Shown: positions 19,918-28,069 of the stretch, in pieces
Numbering within the stretch: position 1 is the stretch's first letter
Layout of the letters: each line of letters starts with the position of its first letter
DNA from: Streptomyces sp. NBC_01497
GTDB taxonomy: Bacteria > Actinomycetota > Actinomycetes > Streptomycetales > Streptomycetaceae
DNA: 64,000 nucleotides
Direction of reading: 5' to 3'
NCBI RefSeq assembly: GCF_036250695.1
Contig: NZ_CP109427.1
Location: 5,952,001 to 6,016,000, forward strand
Translations under genes and position numbers: made by a program
The notes under the pieces: model-generated
Databases searched by the model: none
What the model was told of the DNA's origin: nothing
What the model saw: the letters and a program-made list of their open reading frames with translations, nothing else

Positions 19918-19977
19918 GCAGAAGCAGAAGCAGAAGCAGAAGCAGAAGCAGAAGCAGAAGCAGAAGCAGAAGCAGAA
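19918..19977. repeat. Ten-copy GCAGAA hexanucleotide microsatellite
   Basis: Ten perfect GCAGAA units in the 557-base spacer (19652-20208) between two reverse-strand genes. It keeps several frames open (poly-Leu, Phe-Cys, Lys-Gln, Glu-Ala, Arg-Ser), all of which I regard as artefacts. No gene is supported in this spacer. It lies about 270 bases upstream of the phosphatase start, in its likely promoter/leader region. Confidence 0.95.
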
Positions 19978-20208
19978 GCCCGGGCCGGGGCTGGCGTCGC
20001 GGGCGGTACCGGAGCCCGGTGACGGAGGCGGCACGCGGGGCGCACCGGACAAGGGGAACGGGTGCGGGGAGCGGGTCCAGGGCCCGAACGAGGCCGCGTG
20101 GCCGGCCGGGCTGTCGGCGGCACGTCGAGACGCCGGCGGCACGCCGCGGCATCGGCCGCCGGTCAGTGCGTCGTCGCCTCGGCTGCCGGGCAGGGCAACC
20201 GCGGTCCG

Positions 20209-21123
20209 TCAGGACATGGCGTCGAGGAGCGACCTGAGGAACGGGACCGTGTCCTGCGGCGGGTTCGCCTCGGCGCTCAGCCGGTCCATGATCAGCGAGT
20301 ACTGGTCGATCTCTTCCTGCTTGTCCAGGTAGATGGCGCCGGTGAGCTGCTCCAGGTAGATCTTGTCCGGGAGGTCGGGCTCCGCGAACCGCAGGAGGGT
20401 GACCGGGGTCCCGGCGGCGGCCAGCGCGCCCACGCTGAACGGGGCGATCTGCAGGGTGACGTTGGGCCGGTCGGTCATCCTGATCAGGTGCTCCAGCTGG
20501 GCGCGGACCACCTCGGGTCCGCCGAAGGGGCGCCGCAGCACGGCCTCGTCCAGGACGGCCCACAGGATGGGCGCTTCCGCTACGTACAGGAGTTTCTGGC
20601 GCTCCAGCCGGAGTTCGACCAGCCGGTCGATCTTGGACATGGGGGAGTCCGGGTAGCCGAGGCGGGTGACGACGCGCGCGTAGTCCTGCGTCTGGAGCAG
20701 GCCCGGCAGGAACTGGACCTCGTAGGAGCGGATGAGGGAGGCGGCCTCCTCCAGACCGACATGCAGCTCGAACCAGTCCTCCAGCACGTCGTTGTACTGG
20801 TGCCACCAGCCCGGCAGGTTGGCCTGCCTGGCCATCTCCACGTACTCGGCCCGCTCGTCCTCGCCGAGGACGCGGTAGAGGGTCAACAGGTCGGCCACGT
20901 CCCGCTGTTTGAAGCCGACCTGACCGCGTTCGAGGCGGGTGATCTTGGCGTCCGACGCGCGGATCGACCGGCCCGCGTCCACCCGGGTGATGCCGCTTTC
21001 CTGGCGGAGCCGGCGCAGTCGGGCGCCCAGGACGATGCGCAGGGCCGTAGGACCGATGCGGGGCTGGTCGAGGTAGCGCCTCAGCGAAGGCTGCTCGCCG
21101 CCCGGCTGCGGTATGGCGCTCAT
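20209..21123 (-). CDS. XRE-family regulator with DUF5753 domain (WhiJ-like)
   Basis: 304 residues. An N-terminal helix-turn-helix (about 28-85) reads LGARLRRLRQESGITRVDAG then ITRLERGQVGFKQRDVADLL. It is followed by the DUF5753 sensor-like domain (~100-300) with YEVQFLPGLLQTQDYARVV, AVLDEAVLRRPFGG and LQIAPFSVGA. Proteins of this type (WhiJ and relatives) repress developmental genes in streptomycetes and usually travel with a DUF397 protein and an anti-sigma-like ATPase, exactly as here. GGGAG lies five bases before ATG 21123. It does not overlap the DUF397 gene; about 280 bases separate them, so each may have its own promoter. Confidence 0.94.
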   Translation of the reverse strand: MSAIPQPGGEQPSLRRYLDQPRIGPTALRIVLGARLRRLRQESGITRVDAGRSIRASDAKITRLERGQVGFKQRDVADLLTLYRVLGEDERAEYVEMARQANLPGWWHQYNDVLEDWFELHVGLEEAASLIRSYEVQFLPGLLQTQDYARVVTRLGYPDSPMSKIDRLVELRLERQKLLYVAEAPILWAVLDEAVLRRPFGGPEVVRAQLEHLIRMTDRPNVTLQIAPFSVGALAAAGTPVTLLRFAEPDLPDKIYLEQLTGAIYLDKQEEIDQYSLIMDRLSAEANPPQDTVPFLRSLLDAMS

Positions 21124-21403: not shown

Positions 21404-21640
21404 TCAGAGGGTCATCGGGTCGAACTCCCCGTCCTTCGCGCCTGCGACGAAAGCGGCGATCTCGGCGCGGGTGTAGACGAGCGCGGGACCTTGCGGGTGG
21501 CGGGAGTTGCGCACCGCGATGCTGCCGTCCTCCAGCGCCGCGACCTCCACGCAGTTGCCGCCGGGGGCGCTGTGCCTGCTTTTCCGCCAGGCGGCACCCT
21601 CGATCAGGTCGGACCGTGTCCCGTTTTCAATCTGTCGCAT
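21404..21640 (-). CDS. DUF397 domain protein
   Basis: 78 residues. The DUF397 core is clear: AAWRKSRHSAPGGNCVEVA, then ALEDGSIAVRNSRHPQGPALVYT and AEIAAFVAGAKDGEFD. Members are small cytoplasmic partners of WhiJ/XRE-DUF5753 regulators and are thought to antagonise or modulate them. ATG 21640 is preceded by GGAGT at nine bases. The frame continues upstream through the operator-like region to 21799, but that extension lacks family similarity. It diverges from the HATPase gene at 21830. Confidence 0.93.
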   Translation of the reverse strand: MRQIENGTRSDLIEGAAWRKSRHSAPGGNCVEVAALEDGSIAVRNSRHPQGPALVYTRAEIAAFVAGAKDGEFDPMTL

Positions 21641-21691
21641 TCCGCCCACTCCTGTGGTTGTGCGTAGTTCTGACCTGGCGCCAGCGACCGC

Positions 21692-21780
21692 AATTGCAGA
21701 TGCACTTGCGGAATCAATTGCGCCTTGCCGAACTGTAATTGCAGATGCAGTTGCGACGCCATCCTTCGCGGGGGGATAGT
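21692..21780. promoter_or_regulatory. Divergent control region with two 19-bp direct repeats
   Basis: AATTGCAGATGCACTTGCG (21692-21710) and AATTGCAGATGCAGTTGCG (21737-21755) are 45 bp apart and differ at one base. The second copy overlaps a -35-like TTGCGA (21751), which with GATAGT (21775, 18-base spacer) makes a plus-strand promoter for the HATPase gene. The block is notably AT-rich for this genome and is a likely operator for the XRE-DUF5753 regulator. Confidence 0.65.
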
Positions 21781-21829
21781 GGGTGCCGATCACCTGCAAG
21801 TGACATATGACTGCTCGACGGAGATCGCG

Positions 21830-22483
21830 ATGACACCCCCCACGTCCCGACCGTCCGGCGCCTTACCGGGAGGGACCGTCGGCCGTCTGCTGGGTCGCGT
21901 GTCCCGCGACGCCTTCCCGTACGACGACGTGACGGCGACCGCCCCCGGCCGATGCCTGGCACGCGCCCTGCCGGCCGACGGCCGGGCGGTCGGCGAGGCC
22001 CGCAGATTCACCGGATTCACGCTCAGGGACTGGGCGCTGGGGCCGCTGGTCGACAACGCGGCACTCATCGTCTCCGAACTCCTGAGCAACGCGCTGCGCT
22101 ACGGGCTCGCGGGGAGTCCGGCGGCACGCTCCTCCGCGCCGCCCGCCGTCTGGCTCGGCCTGCTGCTTCGGCGGGGGACCGTGCTGTTCGCGGTCTGCGA
22201 CCACAGCGCGTCCGTCCCCGAGGTCAGGGAGCCGGACTACTACGCCCAGTCCGGCCGGGGCCTGCACATCATCGAGTGCCTCAGCGAGACCTGGGGCTGG
22301 ACGACACCCGACACGGACGGCAAGGCCGTCTGGGCGGCGATCTCGTGTCCGGGAGCGGGCGGTGAGACCGGCGGCGGCGTGGCCTTGCCGGGTCCGGCGC
22401 TCTCGTCGGGACCTCCGCGGGCCGCGCGGTCCGGCGCGTTGCCGCTGAGCCGGGCGGCCGGCGCCCTCGGCGTCGAGAAGTAG
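21830..22483 (+). CDS. HATPase-domain anti-sigma-factor-like protein (RsbW/SpoIIAB type)
   Basis: 217 residues. The GHKL fold shows as LIVSELLSNALRYGLAG (N-box with the Mg-chelating Asn), VCDHSASVPEV (G1 region) and SGRGLHIIECLSETWGW (G2 lid). These short standalone HATPases act as anti-sigma kinases on STAS proteins or as partners of DUF397/XRE systems. The ATG at 21830 has GGAG seven bases upstream; the longer frame to 21725 runs through the control region. With the XRE-DUF5753 and DUF397 genes it completes the WhiJ-type triad. The ~50 residue Gly/Pro-rich C-terminus is outside the fold. The G1 box D-H-S instead of D-x-G/N is a variant common in this group. Confidence 0.9.
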   Translation: MTPPTSRPSGALPGGTVGRLLGRVSRDAFPYDDVTATAPGRCLARALPADGRAVGEARRFTGFTLRDWALGPLVDNAALIVSELLSNALRYGLAGSPAARSSAPPAVWLGLLLRRGTVLFAVCDHSASVPEVREPDYYAQSGRGLHIIECLSETWGWTTPDTDGKAVWAAISCPGAGGETGGGVALPGPALSSGPPRAARSGALPLSRAAGALGVEK

Positions 22484-22520
22484 CCCGCGGACGACCGGGA
22501 AGCGGGGCCGGCCGAAGGGC

Positions 22521-22564
22521 CGTGGATGCTGCGACGCCGCCGCCGCGGCGCCGCAGCATCCACG
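22521..22564. terminator. Bidirectional terminator between convergent genes
   Basis: Perfect 13-base arms CGTGGATGCTGCG (22521-22533) and the complement at 22552-22564, with a GC-rich inner stem. It lies 38 bases after the HATPase stop and 54 bases after the hydrolase stop on the other strand. Confidence 0.85.
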
Positions 22565-22617
22565 CGGCCACCGGTCGAACGCCTCCCGTTGAGCGCCGCC
22601 CAGCTGTGCGCCGGGGG

Positions 22618-23724
22618 TCAGGCGTCGCCCGGCGGTGCCTGAAGCAGTGCGTACGCCGTCGCCACGAAGGTGTCCCGGAGCCGGAAGCGCCGCGTGGCGA
22701 CGGCGGCCAGCGCGGTGTCCGTACCGGGGGCGAAGCCCAGGAAGGCCTGCTGGCCGCTGGTGGCGCCCGCGTGGAAGTAGACGGGGCCGTGCTCGCTCTC
22801 GTGCCGGAACCAGGTGAGGGTGTGCACGTCGCGGTGGCCCCGGCCGCGTGCCAGCACGTCCCGCCGCATCGCGAGCAGGGCGTCCTCCAGCGGTGAGCCG
22901 GCGGGCCGCAGGTGCGCCTCGACGAAGGCGAGCAGGTCGCCCGGGGTGGCGCGGACCGCCCCCGCGGCCTGGAAGCCCCCGATGAGCAGCGGGGGCGTCG
23001 CCGTCCGACCGTCCGCGCGGTGGCCCGTCGCGTCCACCGGCCCGGCGCCGGGGGCCGCGGGGGACAGGGCCGTGGCGGTGAGTCCCAGCGGAGCCAGGAC
23101 GCCGTCGGTGAGCAGGCTCTCCCAGGGGGTCCCGGTGGCCGCCGCGAGGGCGTGGCCCAGGGCGGCCACGCCGAAGTTGGAGTAGTGCCACCGGGTACCG
23201 GGCCGGTGGCGGGGGCGGGCCCCGAGGAACGCCCGGACGACGCGTTCCGCCGGGTAGTGCGCGTACGGGTTGCTCCGCCACTGCCGCAGCGCGCCCGGGT
23301 AGAGGTCGGCGGGCAGCGACGGCAGCCCGGAGGTGTGGGTGATGAGGTGCGTGAGGGTGAGGGGATGGGGTCCGGGGCGGCGTCCCGGAGCCAGGTACGC
23401 CTGCGCCGGGTCGCCCGCGCCCACCGCGCCCTCGGACAGCAGGCGCCCGAGCAGCAGACCGGTGTACGGCTTGGAGGCCGACCCCGTCTCGTACCGCAGC
23501 AGTTCGCGCGGGGTCGGCGGAGCCGGTGCCGTACCGCCGCAGCGGATGGCGCGGCGGCCGCGGCGCGCGCAGGCGAAGACCACGTCCGGCGCGTCCACCG
23601 CGCGGACCGCCTCGTCGAGGGCCGCCGTCAGGGCGTCGACGGCGGAGGTCCCCCCGCCGGTGGCGCCCCGGTCCGCCGCGGCGGCCGGGCGCGCGGGTCG
23701 CGGCGTGTCGTAGGGGGCGCTCAC
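22618..23724 (-). CDS. Beta-lactamase-fold serine hydrolase, last gene of the five-gene peptide operon
   Basis: 368 residues. It has the three motifs of class C beta-lactamase/DD-peptidase-like hydrolases: SASK (S-x-x-K, the nucleophile) in TGSASKPYTGLLLGRLL, YSN in WHYSNFGVAALG, and HAG in YFHAGATSGQQ. No signal peptide is present, so it acts in the cytoplasm, unlike true beta-lactamases. Typical activities are esterase or D-amino-acid peptidase. GTG 23724 overlaps the upstream stop as GTGA, so it is translationally coupled to the peptide operon. A possible role is cleaving or deacylating the operon's product. The role is inference; the family is secure. Confidence 0.9.
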   Translation of the reverse strand: MSAPYDTPRPARPAAAADRGATGGGTSAVDALTAALDEAVRAVDAPDVVFACARRGRRAIRCGGTAPAPPTPRELLRYETGSASKPYTGLLLGRLLSEGAVGAGDPAQAYLAPGRRPGPHPLTLTHLITHTSGLPSLPADLYPGALRQWRSNPYAHYPAERVVRAFLGARPRHRPGTRWHYSNFGVAALGHALAAATGTPWESLLTDGVLAPLGLTATALSPAAPGAGPVDATGHRADGRTATPPLLIGGFQAAGAVRATPGDLLAFVEAHLRPAGSPLEDALLAMRRDVLARGRGHRDVHTLTWFRHESEHGPVYFHAGATSGQQAFLGFAPGTDTALAAVATRRFRLRDTFVATAYALLQAPPGDA

Positions 23725-24791
23725 GCGGGCGCCGCTGCGGGCGGCGGGGCGTCGGACAGCGCCGCCATGGCGCGGGACGTGGCCAGGGTGGAGGCGAAGG
23801 CCGCGACGAGAGTCGGGTGGTACACGGCGTCGAAGACCTGGTCGGGATCGCCCTCGGGCACGGTGCGCAGCGCGGGCATCGCGCCGTCCGGCCGCTGGGC
23901 GGTGGCGAAGCCCTGCCAGGCGCGTGCGTCGAGCGTCGCCGCGGGCAGGCATGCGTCGACCACGAGCAGTTCGCCGAGCAGGTCCCAGCGCTCCAGGTCC
24001 AGCCAGTCGTCCAGCCACGCGGGCAGCCAGGTGGCGAGGTAGTCGGCGAGGCCGCCGGGCAGCGCGCCGGGGTCGCGTCCCCACTCGGTGAGGTGGAAGA
24101 CGGTGTGGGTGATGTCGTACGCGATGTGGCCCTCGACGGTCCACGGCTCGGGCCTCGCGGCGAGCCAGGTGCGGCGCAGGTCCGCGTGCAGGTCGGGGAC
24201 CTGTCCCGAGCCGGCCGGCTCCGCCGCGTCGGGCGCCGCCAGGGCCGCGTACCGGCGCCGGAACGCGGTGAGGCCCAGCCGGCGGACCGGTTTGACCTCG
24301 AACGCGGCCCAGCTGTCCAGGCGTTGGTTGAGCCGGACCGCCTCCTCGACCGCGGGATCGGCGTACCCCAGTTCCCGGAACGGGAGATAGACCTCGAACG
24401 GGATGGGGGAGATCGGCTCGGTCCGCTGGCCCCGCACCAGCATGTGCCCGCTGTCCAGTGCCTCGTGCCAGACATGGTCGAGCAGCCGCCGCACCAGGTC
24501 CGACTGACGGGAGCCGGCCACGCCCTCGCGGAAGAGCACCGCGCCGATCATGGCCAGCTCGCCGATGGGCTTGAACCGTTCGAGGAAGCCCGTCTCGGGG
24601 TCCGCGTCGGGGTCGAGGCGGAAGCCGTCGCGGTGCGCGTACAGCCACTCGACCGCCTGCGCGCCGACCGTGTGGACGAGCGCGGTGTCCGCCGGTGCCG
24701 GTGCCGGTGCGGTGAGAGTGCCGGCACCGGGCCCGCCACGCGCGGCGGTTGCGCCCGCCGGGGTACCGCTGGTCGGGGTGTCGTCCGTCAT
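23721..24791 (-). CDS. Uncharacterised protein D of the peptide operon, paralogue of the gene at 24788
   Basis: 356 residues. A ~40-residue Gly/Ala/Pro-rich start precedes a helical domain with ERFKPIGELAMIGAVLFREG, LLDHVWHEALDSG, DITHTVFHLTEWGRDP, LATWLPAWLDDWLDLERWDL and FATAQRPDGAMPAL, then YHPTLVAAFASTLA at the end. Each block has a counterpart in the same order in the neighbour at 24788, so the two are tandem paralogues. The A-Q-x-x-D-G repeat and long helices resemble an alpha/alpha barrel (LanC or terpene-cyclase-like toroid), but no catalytic motif is certain; H-T-V-F-H is a possible metal or catalytic site. ATG 24791 overlaps the upstream stop (ATGA). I do not recognise a characterised family. 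Confidence 0.8.
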   Translation of the reverse strand: MTDDTPTSGTPAGATAARGGPGAGTLTAPAPAPADTALVHTVGAQAVEWLYAHRDGFRLDPDADPETGFLERFKPIGELAMIGAVLFREGVAGSRQSDLVRRLLDHVWHEALDSGHMLVRGQRTEPISPIPFEVYLPFRELGYADPAVEEAVRLNQRLDSWAAFEVKPVRRLGLTAFRRRYAALAAPDAAEPAGSGQVPDLHADLRRTWLAARPEPWTVEGHIAYDITHTVFHLTEWGRDPGALPGGLADYLATWLPAWLDDWLDLERWDLLGELLVVDACLPAATLDARAWQGFATAQRPDGAMPALRTVPEGDPDQVFDAVYHPTLVAAFASTLATSRAMAALSDAPPPAAAPA

Positions 24792-25735
24792 GCCGGCGCT
24801 CCCTGTCTGCCGGCCGCCGGGCCGAGGGTGAGCGCGGCGGCGAAGGCGGCCATGAGTGTGGAGTGGTAGCGGCCGCGAAAGTCCCGCTGTACGGCGCGGC
24901 CCTCGGGTCCCGGTCCGATCTCGGGCAGTCCGCCGTCGGCGTCCTGCGCGGCGGCCAGGGCCGACCACGCCCCGGCCAGCAGGTCCGCGCCGGGCGGCGA
25001 GGGCAGTGACGCGGCCACGGCGAGCAGTTCCGCCGTCAGGTCCCACTGGTCGTCCTGCACGCAGGAGTCGAGCCACGCGGGCAGCCACTGCCCGAGGTAC
25101 GAGGCGATGTCGTCCGGGACGCCCGCCGCCTCGCCGCCCCAGTCGGTGAGGTGGAAGACCACGTGCGTGAGGGCGTATCCGGAGGCGTTCTCGAACGTCC
25201 AGGGCTCGGGCAGGCCGCCGAGCCAGGTGGCGCGCAGCGCGTCGGCCACTGGCCGGTGCGGGGGGAAGCCCGCGCGGCGCTCGGAGTTGAGCAGGCCGAG
25301 CCGCCGGTTCGGCAGCTGTTCCGTCAGGCGCCAGCCGCGGGTGCGGACCGTGGCCGAGGCGAGATCCTCGAAGCCGGCGTGCCGCAGGCCGGCGGAGGCG
25401 AAGGCCGCGTACACCTCCAGGGCGTACGTGCCGAACGGTTCGAGCCGCAGCAGTTCGTGGAAGACCGCCCCGTCCTCGGTGAGCCGCCAGGCGTGGCGCA
25501 GCAGGTCGCAGGCGGTGGTGTGCAGCGGATCGCCGGGCGTGGTGGCCCGGCGAACCGAGACGCACACCTGGGCCAGCTCACCCAGGGGCTTCCAGGTGCG
25601 GTTGACGTCGCCGTCCAGGGCGAGGGCGTCCTCGCCGAGCCGGAACTGCGACCGGTTCGCCGCGACCCAGCGCAGGGCCGCCTCGCCGACCGTGCGGACC
25701 GCCGGTGCCGAGGGCGCCCTCGCGGGCGCCGTCAC
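24788..25735 (-). CDS. Uncharacterised protein C of the peptide operon, paralogue of the gene at 23721
   Basis: 315 residues. It shows WKPLGELAQVCVSVRRA, LLRHAWRLTEDGAVFHELLRLEPFG, GYALTHVVFHLTDWGGEA, LGQWLPAWLDSCVQDDQWDL, LAAAQDADGGLPEIG and YHSTLMAAFAAALTLG, matching protein D block for block. It is predicted to be mostly helical and cytoplasmic, with no signal or membrane segments. The shared H-x-V-F-H-L-T-x-W-G motif is the most conserved stretch and could be functional. GTG 25735 overlaps the stop of the previous gene (GTGA). The duplication followed by divergence suggests a heterodimer or two sequential steps on one substrate. Function unknown. Confidence 0.8.
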   Translation of the reverse strand: MTAPARAPSAPAVRTVGEAALRWVAANRSQFRLGEDALALDGDVNRTWKPLGELAQVCVSVRRATTPGDPLHTTACDLLRHAWRLTEDGAVFHELLRLEPFGTYALEVYAAFASAGLRHAGFEDLASATVRTRGWRLTEQLPNRRLGLLNSERRAGFPPHRPVADALRATWLGGLPEPWTFENASGYALTHVVFHLTDWGGEAAGVPDDIASYLGQWLPAWLDSCVQDDQWDLTAELLAVAASLPSPPGADLLAGAWSALAAAQDADGGLPEIGPGPEGRAVQRDFRGRYHSTLMAAFAAALTLGPAAGRQGAPA

Positions 25736-26511
25736 GACGCTCCGGACCTCGCCCGCAGGGCCTGGGCCACATGCGTGTGGAGGGAGACGCGCGAGTCGTC
25801 CGCGCCCATCCGCGCGACGAACTCCAGGCCCGCGTCGAGGCCCAGCGTGCTCGGCACGCCGTCCACGACGGCCAGCCAGCGGCCCGTGCCGGCCGCCTGC
25901 AGCCAGTCGCGGCGGCGCACGGCCCGTACGAACCCGCGCGCCACGTCGACGGGTCTGCGGGCGGCGACCCGGGCGATCCCCGAGCCCGAACCGGGCACGG
26001 CCAGTGCGGCGAGCACCGCGAGCTGATGGCCCAGTGTCTGCCAGGGGGCGTCGTCGAGCCAGTCGGTGGTCGGCTCGGCGCAGGGGGCGGGCCCGTCGGC
26101 GGGGGCGCCCGGGGGCCCGGGAGCGGAGTCGTCCGGCGCTGGGTCCGTACGGGTGAGGGTGCCGACCGTCCCCGGGCTCTCCGCGAGCCGCAGGAGGGTG
26201 TCCGTCATCGCCCAGTGGCTCCACGCCGAGACCGCCGGCGCGTCGGAGCCCGGTGGGAAGACCGTGACGGCCTGCTGGAACAGGGTGAGGTCACCGTTGT
26301 CGGCGGGGCGGCCGAGCAGCACGCTCGGGAGCAGAACGTCGGAACCGAGAACCCGCACCGCCGCGAGTCCCAGGCCGTCGTCCGCGCTGATTCCGGCACC
26401 ACCGCACACACCGCCGAAGTGGTCCCCGCCCCGAAGAGCGGAGACCACCTCGAACGCGAGCTCCTGCACCGCACCCGTCAGGCGGGTGGAGGTACCTGGC
26501 TGCTCGGTCAT
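25732..26511 (-). CDS. Uncharacterised protein B of the peptide operon
   Basis: 259 residues from ATG 26511. The N-terminal half reads LTGAVQELAFEVVSALRGG, GISADDGLGLAAVRVLGSD and WSHWAMTDTLLRLAESPG. A Pro/Asp-rich linker (~125-150) leads to a helical C-terminal half, LGHQLAVLAALAVPGSG, RPVDVARGFVRAVRRRDWLQAA and FVARMGADDSRVSLHTHVAQAL. No membrane helix, signal or known catalytic motif is visible. It follows the small peptide gene by nine bases, and its stop overlaps the start of protein C, so all are co-transcribed. I do not recognise a family. In RiPP-like logic it could be a leader-binding or modifying protein, but that is inference. Confidence 0.78.
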   Translation of the reverse strand: MTEQPGTSTRLTGAVQELAFEVVSALRGGDHFGGVCGGAGISADDGLGLAAVRVLGSDVLLPSVLLGRPADNGDLTLFQQAVTVFPPGSDAPAVSAWSHWAMTDTLLRLAESPGTVGTLTRTDPAPDDSAPGPPGAPADGPAPCAEPTTDWLDDAPWQTLGHQLAVLAALAVPGSGSGIARVAARRPVDVARGFVRAVRRRDWLQAAGTGRWLAVVDGVPSTLGLDAGLEFVARMGADDSRVSLHTHVAQALRARSGAS

Positions 26512-26520
26512 CGACTTCCG

Positions 26521-26709
26521 TCAGCCCTTCTTCGGCCGCGGGGTCGGAGGCGAAAGCAGCAGCGAGCCCGCACCACTGGCCAGGGCCAGGGCCGCGCACT
26601 CCCGCGTGTCGCGGAAGGTGCCGCCTGCTTCGAGTGGGTTGAGGGCCGCTTCGAGGTCCGTGTCCTGAAGCTCGGTGAGTTCGCGGGTCACGGGTGCGAC
26701 GGAAGCCAT
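26521..26709 (-). CDS. 62-residue peptide, candidate precursor heading a five-gene operon
   Basis: ATG 26709, with AAAGGGG nine bases upstream; the in-frame ATG 26718 is too close to that site. The peptide starts MASVAPVTRELTELQDTDL, an acidic amphipathic leader-like half. A G-G pair (about residues 29-30) and TFRDTRECAALALASGAGS follow, then LLLSPPTPRPKKG, a hydrophobic/Pro/basic tail. It has one Cys and several Ser/Thr. An acidic leader, a Gly-Gly step and a distinct C-terminus as the first gene of an operon of unknown enzymes is the pattern of a ribosomally made modified peptide. No lanthipeptide synthetase, YcaO, radical-SAM or exporter gene is nearby, so any modification chemistry would be new. 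It might instead be a small structural protein. Confidence 0.75.
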   Translation of the reverse strand: MASVAPVTRELTELQDTDLEAALNPLEAGGTFRDTRECAALALASGAGSLLLSPPTPRPKKG

Positions 26710-26785
26710 CCCCACCATCCCCTTTCAATCGACGTATTGCGCCTTGCGGGACCATCACAACACACATGGGACATAAGCGGCAAAA

Positions 26786-26814
26786 CATACAAGGATGCCT
26801 GAATCGCTGCACAA
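26786..26814 (-). promoter_or_regulatory. Promoter of the peptide operon
   Basis: On the minus strand TTGTGC (26809-26814), a 17-base spacer, then TGTATG (26786-26791), about 77 bases before the peptide ATG. The leader 26719-26820 is clearly richer in A/T than its surroundings. Confidence 0.5.
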
Positions 26815-26915
26815 TGCAGAGTTCACGACGCAGAGTGCGGCGTCACCCTCCCCGACGCGGGACGGCGTGCGGGGGACAGGGCGTGGGCACGGTGGCCGCC
26901 CGAAGGACCACCGCG

Positions 26916-26947: not shown

Positions 26948-28069
26948 TCAGCCGATCTCGGCGCCCAGGGCCGTGAGCGCGGCGGGCACGGGCTGGAAGT
27001 AAGTCTCCCCACCCGCGGCGCAGTTGCCGTTGCCTCCCGACGTCAGCCCCAGCGCGGTGGAGCCGTCGAAGAGCGGGCCGCCGCTGTCGCCCGGCTCGGC
27101 GCACACCGAGGTCTTGATGAGGCCGCTGACCGTTCCTTCCTCGTAGTTGACGGTCGCGTCCAGACCGGTGACCTCGCCGGTGTGGGTCCCGGTGGTGCTG
27201 CCACTGCGCTCCACGCTCTGTCCGACCAGCGCCTCACCCGCCGAGGTGATCGGCTGGGTCGTGCCGTTGTAGAGGTCGACGTCGCTGGGGTGCGCGATGG
27301 TGCTCGTGTACTTGACGAGCGAGTAGTCGTGCGTGGGGAAGACCGCGGTCTCGGTCTGGGCGACCTCGGCCCCGTTCTCCGTGTCCGACCAGGTCTTGAC
27401 GGCCTTGCCGCAGTGGCCCGCCGTCAGGAAGTAGGGGACGCCCGCCTTGACCACGTTGAAGCCGAGCGAGCAGCGGGCACCGTCGCCCCAGATGGCGTCC
27501 CCGCCCGAGAGGAACACCGACAGCCTGCCGGGGTTTCGTTCGAGCACGGCCCGGCTGCCCAGATCGTCGACGATTCTGTTCAGGCGGGCCAGTCTGGCGT
27601 CGTCCACCGTGCGGTCCGCGCTCACCACGACCTTGTCCGCCTTCGGGTCGATGACCCAGGACGTGCCGGTCATCATGGCCTTGGCCCGCAGCGTCGCGGC
27701 GGCGGCCCGCAGGTCCACCAGCGAGTTCGACACGAGGCGGGGCGTCGCGCCCCCGGCCCGTACGGTGTCGGCGGCCGACTCGTCGAGGACGTTGACGACG
27801 AGCCGGCGGTGCGTCGAGTCGTAGAAGACCCCCTGCGACGTGTCGTCGAAGCGGGCCGCCAGCGAACCGGCCGAGGCGGCCGACATGCCCTCGGGTCCCG
27901 GTGGGGCGGGGGCGGCGACCCCCGCGTGGGCAGGTGCGGTGGCGGCGAGGAGGGCGGCCGCGGTCAGTGCGAGGGCGCCGGCACCGGTCAGTCGGGCGCG
28001 CCGGGGCGAGACGTGTCTGTACTGCAACTCAGAGCCCTTCGGGGACAGAGGTTCGGCACGGACACTCAT
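26948..28069 (-). CDS. Secreted S1-family serine protease (streptogrisin/alpha-lytic type)
   Basis: 373 residues: signal peptide (~1-49, hydrophobic core then APAHAG), a pro-region (~50-180), and a mature protease (~190-373). The catalytic triad is visible: His in FLTAGHCGK, Asp in THDYSLVKY and Ser in AEPGDSGGPLF. Cys pairs around the His and Ser match streptogrisins, which are secreted, self-activated proteases. The first ~28 residues form an unusually long basic n-region (RHVSPRRARLTG), so the true start may be internal. ATG 28069 lacks a Shine-Dalgarno. It lies upstream of the peptide operon on the same strand but is separated by a terminator. Confidence 0.93.
   Translation of the reverse strand: MSVRAEPLSPKGSELQYRHVSPRRARLTGAGALALTAAALLAATAPAHAGVAAPAPPGPEGMSAASAGSLAARFDDTSQGVFYDSTHRRLVVNVLDESAADTVRAGGATPRLVSNSLVDLRAAAATLRAKAMMTGTSWVIDPKADKVVVSADRTVDDARLARLNRIVDDLGSRAVLERNPGRLSVFLSGGDAIWGDGARCSLGFNVVKAGVPYFLTAGHCGKAVKTWSDTENGAEVAQTETAVFPTHDYSLVKYTSTIAHPSDVDLYNGTTQPITSAGEALVGQSVERSGSTTGTHTGEVTGLDATVNYEEGTVSGLIKTSVCAEPGDSGGPLFDGSTALGLTSGGNGNCAAGGETYFQPVPAALTALGAEIG

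Follow-up and report, generated by a model that had tools for sequence, protein, structure and literature searches.

A row of five genes on the minus strand of Streptomyces sp. NBC_01497 raises the question of what a peptide of 62 residues does at the head of four larger genes. The locus lies in a stretch of 64,000 nucleotides (contig NZ_CP109427.1, positions 5,952,001 to 6,016,000), which is called the window here and to which all coordinates refer. An original prediction had taken it for an undescribed system that makes a modified peptide or a signal. Our analysis indicates that the operon is real, widespread and probably functional as a peptide pathway. With moderate confidence, we favour an operon for a ribosomally synthesized and post-translationally modified peptide (RiPP), in which two proteins of family DUF6895 (genes 3 and 4) would epimerise the precursor and a serine hydrolase of family S12 (gene 5) would trim the product.

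Linkage and conservation of the peptide gene

Independent evidence for linkage came from genome-wide searches with gene 2 and with the peptide in 199 Streptomyces genomes, which cover only the peptide flavour of the window (type I, see below). The gene 2 profile reached at least 188 bits in 60 of these genomes, and the genomes with a peptide match at E 1.1e-10 or better were precisely these 60. In every case the two matches shared contig and strand, with the peptide lying 13-52 bases upstream. An extra peptide match in genome G036 (E 3.4e-4), which had no gene 2 match, was left out of the count. These results agree with the predicted dedication of the peptide to the enzymes of the operon. Weaker gene 2 matches were present in 11 further genomes (71 in all); nine of the 11 were loci with a single DUF6895 gene, and the remaining two (G009, G182) lie outside the loci examined.

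The examined loci (L003, L033-L112 and L153-L192; 121 in total) were chosen for DUF6895, so the rate of this family is built in; the shorter loci L004-L032 do not enter these counts. A search of the genome contigs for related loci had given one locus, L003. Gene 2 was present in 97 of the 121 loci, 58 with two or more DUF6895 stretches (tandem loci) and 39 with one (single loci, counting L095, a tandem-type locus cut by a contig end). A precursor-like peptide was seen in 93 of the 97. All 58 tandem loci had it, 54 by an anchored sequence pattern and L047, L077, L177 and L104 by tblastn and inspection, as did 35 of the 39 single loci; L071 is cut by a contig end. The larger genes therefore do not occur mostly without a peptide. 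The S12 hydrolase followed wherever the contig was long enough, except in L174. A short precursor gene that is fixed next to modifying enzymes, as found here, is typical of RiPP loci. DUF6895 itself was present in 92/199 genomes of the genus, 57/101 of the family sample and 32/394 of the class sample; the three samples overlap.

The window peptide (MASVAPVTRELTELQDTDLEAALNPLEAGGTFRDTRECAALALASGAGSLLLSPPTPRPKKG, 62 residues) matched no Pfam or NCBIfam family. There were 259 homologues at E<=0.01, and the 120 listed carry no Pfam domain. From these 120 we picked 45 for an alignment, in which only the second Gly of the proposed Gly-Gly step was invariant. In type I peptides the N-terminal 20 residues or so are variable, while a GxFRDSREC block and the LLLSPPTPRPKKG tail are conserved; about six variable residues lie between them, within a hydrophobic stretch. 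The Cys of the block (C38) is near-invariant, being present in 45/45 homologues and in 42/43 peptides of a set of equal length. In this set the ratio of non-synonymous to synonymous polymorphism (pN/pS) was 0.29 for the block, 0.79 for the variable stretch and 0.35 for the tail. The set was anchored on the middle block (54/58 tandem loci matched the pattern, and 43 of equal length were used), which favours the block, and six of the 43 rows have a shifted tail and understate its conservation. The pattern indicates that the peptide is most likely translated and under selection.

Three flavours of the precursor share a common plan of acidic block, Leu/Ala-rich stretch, Ser and polar tail with Pro. 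Type I goes with tandem DUF6895 genes. Type II occurs with a single DUF6895 gene (29 loci) and consists of EPEAPxSDAPxYxPEAxG, LLLLLLL and SPKEPKEPKxK. Type III, also with a single DUF6895 gene (L056, L086, L153, L154, L155), has a Leu/Ala stretch, S-x-[NDE]-P and roughly EPIEDxxxGVVQNLACARAF. Each flavour has its own tail: SPPTPRPKKG, SPKEPKEPK, and EPIED..GVVQNLACARAF, respectively. Hydropathy peaked at the Ser or immediately before it in the one example inspected per flavour. Genome G006 has two tandem peptide copies. In L104 the peptide frame continues into the frame of gene 2 with loss of the peptide stop, reflecting either a genuine mutation or an error of sequencing.

Proteins encoded downstream of the peptide

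Three of the larger genes had been described as unrecognised. This was confirmed for gene 2, which matched no Pfam or NCBIfam family, but genes 3 and 4 are paralogues (39% identical) of DUF6895, scoring 297.1 and 251.6 bits against PF21836 (curated cut-off 23.8). Gene 2 was modelled as an all-helical protein (predicted local distance difference test, pLDDT, 87.7), and a fold search gave weak matches to alpha/alpha-toroids only.

Both DUF6895 proteins retain the residues that are conserved family-wide, K49, E53, H191, D232, E236 and H291 in gene 3 and K74, E78, H229, D270, E274 and H325 in gene 4. The model of gene 4 is an (alpha/alpha)6 barrel (pLDDT 83.3). In a tree of the family, the second tandem copies formed a nearly clean group (56/58 tips, support 0.88); first tandem copies and single copies were intermixed, giving no order of duplication. 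By the title of its paper, one DUF6895 protein is a lasso-peptide epimerase (Shi et al., ACS Catal. 2026, doi 10.1021/acscatal.5c08590, as cited in PMC13352647). Since the family is tied to several unrelated precursors and one member is named an epimerase, precursor epimerisation is the most likely role of genes 3 and 4.

DUF6895 was found in diverse contexts across the loci examined. Eight other loci (L085, L087, L088, L092, L094, L167, L168, L170) combine a DUF6895 pair with an unrelated conserved short peptide (e.g., MPENTNPKPIEDEDIEVVAHGEDEEAEAGCIVNNSSDIS in L085) and form a separate RiPP-like cluster. In 8/8 loci the peptide combines an acidic part with an end resembling CIVNNSS, and a gene of the major facilitator superfamily was present in all eight. 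A radical-SAM gene together with a prolyl oligopeptidase was present in five of them (L085, L087, L088, L092, L094). In 7/8 the two DUF6895 genes are separated by another radical-SAM gene; in L170 only a short matching frame was seen. In L070, L079, L080 and L176 a double-length DUF6895 match follows a small conserved protein (..KALDFLRTSGLVDL..VAGYVLAWERYVLVVAN..). A methyltransferase-like gene adjoins DUF6895 in L158 (by PF13578) and L165 (by eye), and L158 also has a cytochrome P450 (PF00067).

The predicted beta-lactamase-fold hydrolase was clearly recognised: gene 5 scored 161.5 bits against PF00144 (cut-off 27). It contains the motifs SxxK, YxN and HxG (S82, K85, Y181, N183, H318, G320). 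Among the aligned relatives, the catalytic Ser and Lys were present in 94/94, Tyr in 93/94 and His in 91/94. The protein has no obvious signal sequence, and its N-terminal hydropathy is low. Both D-peptidases and class C beta-lactamases are found among its sequence relatives. Fold and catalytic Ser/Lys/Tyr are common to gene 5 and the S12 peptidases ClbP, alkaline D-peptidase and 3wwx; unlike these, gene 5 looks cytosolic and lies inside a peptide operon. In a review of RiPP leader proteases (PMC10885120), a term search found no mention of lactamase or S12.

Layout and surroundings of the operon

The predicted gene layout was confirmed: the five minus-strand frames are present, as are the nine-base gap and the overlaps GTGA (genes 2 and 3), ATGA (genes 3 and 4) and GTGA (genes 4 and 5), and the operon is strongly conserved. 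The features are collected in Table 1.

Table 1. Features of the five-gene operon and its flanks (positions in the window).
Feature	Position	Strand	Remarks
Upstream lower-GC (guanine-cytosine) region, probable promoter	26719..26830	-	51% GC over 26720-26830 vs 70-79% in genes
Shine-Dalgarno-like AAAGGGG	26719-26725	-	ends nine bases before ATG 26709
Precursor-like peptide, 62 amino acids	26521..26709	-	ATG 26709, stop codon 26523-26521
Conserved block GTFRDTREC, residues 30-38	26596..26622	-	G30, R33, D34, C38 invariant in 45 homologues
Conserved tail LLLSPPTPRPKKG, residues 50-62	26524..26562	-	L51, L52, P54, P55, T56, P57, R58, P59, K61 invariant in the same 45 homologues
Gene 2, 259 amino acids, all-helical, without known family	25732..26511	-	nine bases after peptide
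Gene 3, DUF6895 paralogue A, 315 amino acids, putative peptide epimerase	24788..25735	-	GTG start 25735; PF21836 E 1.8e-88
Gene 4, DUF6895 paralogue B, 356 amino acids, putative peptide epimerase	23721..24791	-	PF21836 E 1.3e-74
Gene 5, S12/PF00144 serine hydrolase, 368 amino acids	22618..23724	-	GTG start 23724; PF00144 E 3.8e-47
Perfect 19-bp hairpin, probable terminator	22522..22563	-	fold z -3.35 over 22505-22620

The signals at both ends were supported in part. The probable promoter region is lower in GC than the genes, but a promoter consensus scan upstream of the peptide gene found no sigma-70 consensus site. An alternative start of the peptide at 26718 (65 amino acids) directly abuts the AAAGGGG sequence. 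The proposed strong terminator corresponds to a perfect hairpin, but this hairpin has no T-run and was therefore not scored by the terminator scan. None of the five genes contains a TTA codon.

Directly upstream of the operon lies the gene for a streptogrisin-like protease (26948-28069), a trypsin-fold protein with an alpha-lytic-protease prodomain. We rejected it as a part of the operon, since only the window and L060 have it directly upstream in the same orientation. A protease with 34-40% identity occurs in 19 further tandem loci; there it is encoded on the opposite strand and centred 4.3-4.7 kb downstream of where gene 2 starts. The window has another serine hydrolase of PF00144 (28932-30080, E 1.6e-55), which lies roughly 2 kb upstream of the operon. 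Downstream are an HTH_31-DUF5753 regulator (20209-21123), a DUF397 protein (21404-21799) and, on the opposite strand, a frame (21725-22483) with a HATPase_c_2 match just under the cut-off; among the clusters listed, no neighbours of these kinds were shared. The window also has a tandem repeat of the hexanucleotide GCAGAA (19918-19979, 10.3 copies, 100% match).

A putative epimerised peptide and the alternatives

In the mechanism we favour, the peptide would be the precursor, which the maturation proteins would recognise by the acidic block in its middle and by its polar tail with Pro and Lys. Gene 2, a candidate companion or recognition subunit, may hold the precursor or the enzymes; together with the barrels, it would bind block and tail. 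The two (alpha/alpha)6-barrel enzymes would epimerise one or more residues by acid/base chemistry, most likely within the Leu/Ala/Gly-rich stretch before Ser-Pro. This step we infer from family membership and from the title of the paper on another DUF6895 member. Some S12 enzymes prefer D-residues. As some members of the family are D-peptidases, the presence of such a hydrolase next to a putative epimerase hints that the cleavage site is a D-residue, and the cytosolic-looking gene 5 may cut next to this residue and release the putative product.

Several observations weigh against this interpretation. The family-wide Lys drops to 47% in 15 DUF6895 rows of other contexts, and the published lasso epimerase may belong to a different subfamily than genes 3 and 4. 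No DUF6895 gene was found beside a lasso B2 gene (PF13471) among the matches listed, so the published function is not tied to a sequence. The best sequence matches of gene 5 were generic beta-lactamase-fold proteins, which makes its D-specificity a guess. No exporter or transporter is encoded among the five genes. The RiPP recognition element is a winged-helix fold; none was recognised in the operon, and the fold search with gene 2 gave no clear relative. No peptide was seen in the single loci L075, L174 and L187. Finally, a conserved leader with a variable C-terminal core, as originally predicted for the peptide, is usual in RiPPs but not obligatory, and type I peptides have the reverse, a variable N-terminus and a conserved tail.

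That the DUF6895 barrels perform another peptide modification (e.g., cyclisation, hydration or transfer) is possible but doubtful; the operon would then still be a RiPP pathway. Terpene cyclases and glycosidases (GH105, GH88) were the best structural neighbours of the gene 4 barrel, and the near-invariant Cys of type I is not explained by epimerisation of a Leu-rich stretch. The diversity of DUF6895 contexts also fits such a modification. A Cys-based reaction would not be general, however, because Cys is absent from the last 52 residues in 26 of the 28 type II precursors compared. Moreover, the family-wide K, E, H, D, E and H would suit acid/base chemistry, and epimerase, as given in the title of the cited paper, is the only printed function that we found for DUF6895.

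We consider it improbable that the peptide serves as a small subunit, structural or regulatory, in a complex of gene 2 and DUF6895, with another substrate for the S12 hydrolase. Conservation up to the C-terminus, as in a subunit, was found in part, since the tail is near-invariant within a flavour. The tails, and also the lengths, vary among flavours despite the same set of gene 2, DUF6895 and S12 proteins, which argues against a fixed structural subunit. The strict one-to-one linkage of peptide and gene 2 and the lack of an exporter would agree with a subunit, but the variation of the middle stretch, the tandem peptide copy in G006 and the unrelated peptide beside DUF6895 pairs in eight other loci would not. 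A defence or toxin-antitoxin module is very unlikely: a short peptide with a hydrophobic core, a conceivable small toxin, heads the operon and its distribution is patchy (60/199), but PADLOC families matched none of the five proteins at E<=0.01, and the peptide has four large partners rather than one antitoxin, three of them with enzyme-like folds or residues.

The preferred epimerase pathway can be compared with known systems. As predicted, the five genes contain no lanthipeptide (LanB/M/C), YcaO, lasso or radical-SAM domains of Pfam or NCBIfam. YydG of the epipeptide system is a radical-SAM enzyme, and yyd contains protease and exporter genes as well. Epipeptides (YydF/YydG) are closest in their working, as a short peptide is active through epimerisation; the bioactivity of YydF is said to need epimerisation only, and YydG is set beside PoyD-type epimerases (PMC10373908). 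Without a radical-SAM epimerase domain, the operon is not a member of this group. MslH of MS-271 is also described as a peptide epimerase acting on a precursor, and its structure is published (PMC10406935), yet the gene 4 profile found no chain in the PDB below E 0.036; gene 4 is instead modelled as the (alpha/alpha)6 barrel. Linaridins (grisemycin, with the putative epimerase GrmL) are described in PMC10373908 as having several D-residues and an unusual putative epimerase. The five genes matched no linaridin family in a comparison made without GrmL itself.

The lasso epimerase of Shi et al., as far as its title and citation tell, shares its Pfam family with genes 3 and 4; the operon differs from its pathway by another precursor, tandem DUF6895 copies, an extra helical protein and the S12 hydrolase. 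PF13471 had no match in this genome at E<=0.001, with 21 of 54 first-look candidates scored. We looked by eye for a lasso locus with DUF6895 among the matches listed in the 199 genomes and rejected this link, as none was seen; the nearest PF13471/DUF6895 pair listed on one contig is about 72 kb apart (genome G121). The literature search, whose coverage leaves out most subscription journals, found no paper with the tail motifs and no title that names the operon. The system is new in the literature searched, but it draws on an enzyme family for which a function has been reported, and the claim of an undescribed chemistry is weakened by the epimerase title.

The near-invariant tail in 60/199 Streptomyces genomes fits a conserved signal or a self-acting peptide better than a diversifying toxin. 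A bolder version, which we consider rather unlikely, is that the operon represents a class of D-amino-acid RiPPs that has not been described so far and is common in Streptomyces and genera related to it, with a maturation that needs nothing but barrel-fold epimerases and a D-specific S12 peptidase. The product would have a Leu/Ala-rich stretch of mixed chirality and a charged Pro-rich tail and might form a gramicidin-like membrane helix; the tail would mark a genus-wide signal or developmental factor, not a weapon.

If the epimerase interpretation is true, close to a third of the sampled Streptomyces (60/199) carry this peptide pathway, which searches for known RiPP core enzymes would have missed since the operon has none of them. 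It would provide peptide epimerases that are built as barrels and have no radical-SAM domain, and possibly a D-specific maturation peptidase. The reach of DUF6895 would then go beyond one lasso pathway and include two or more further types of precursor, and the role of the conserved peptide in Streptomyces biology would be open to testing by deletion.

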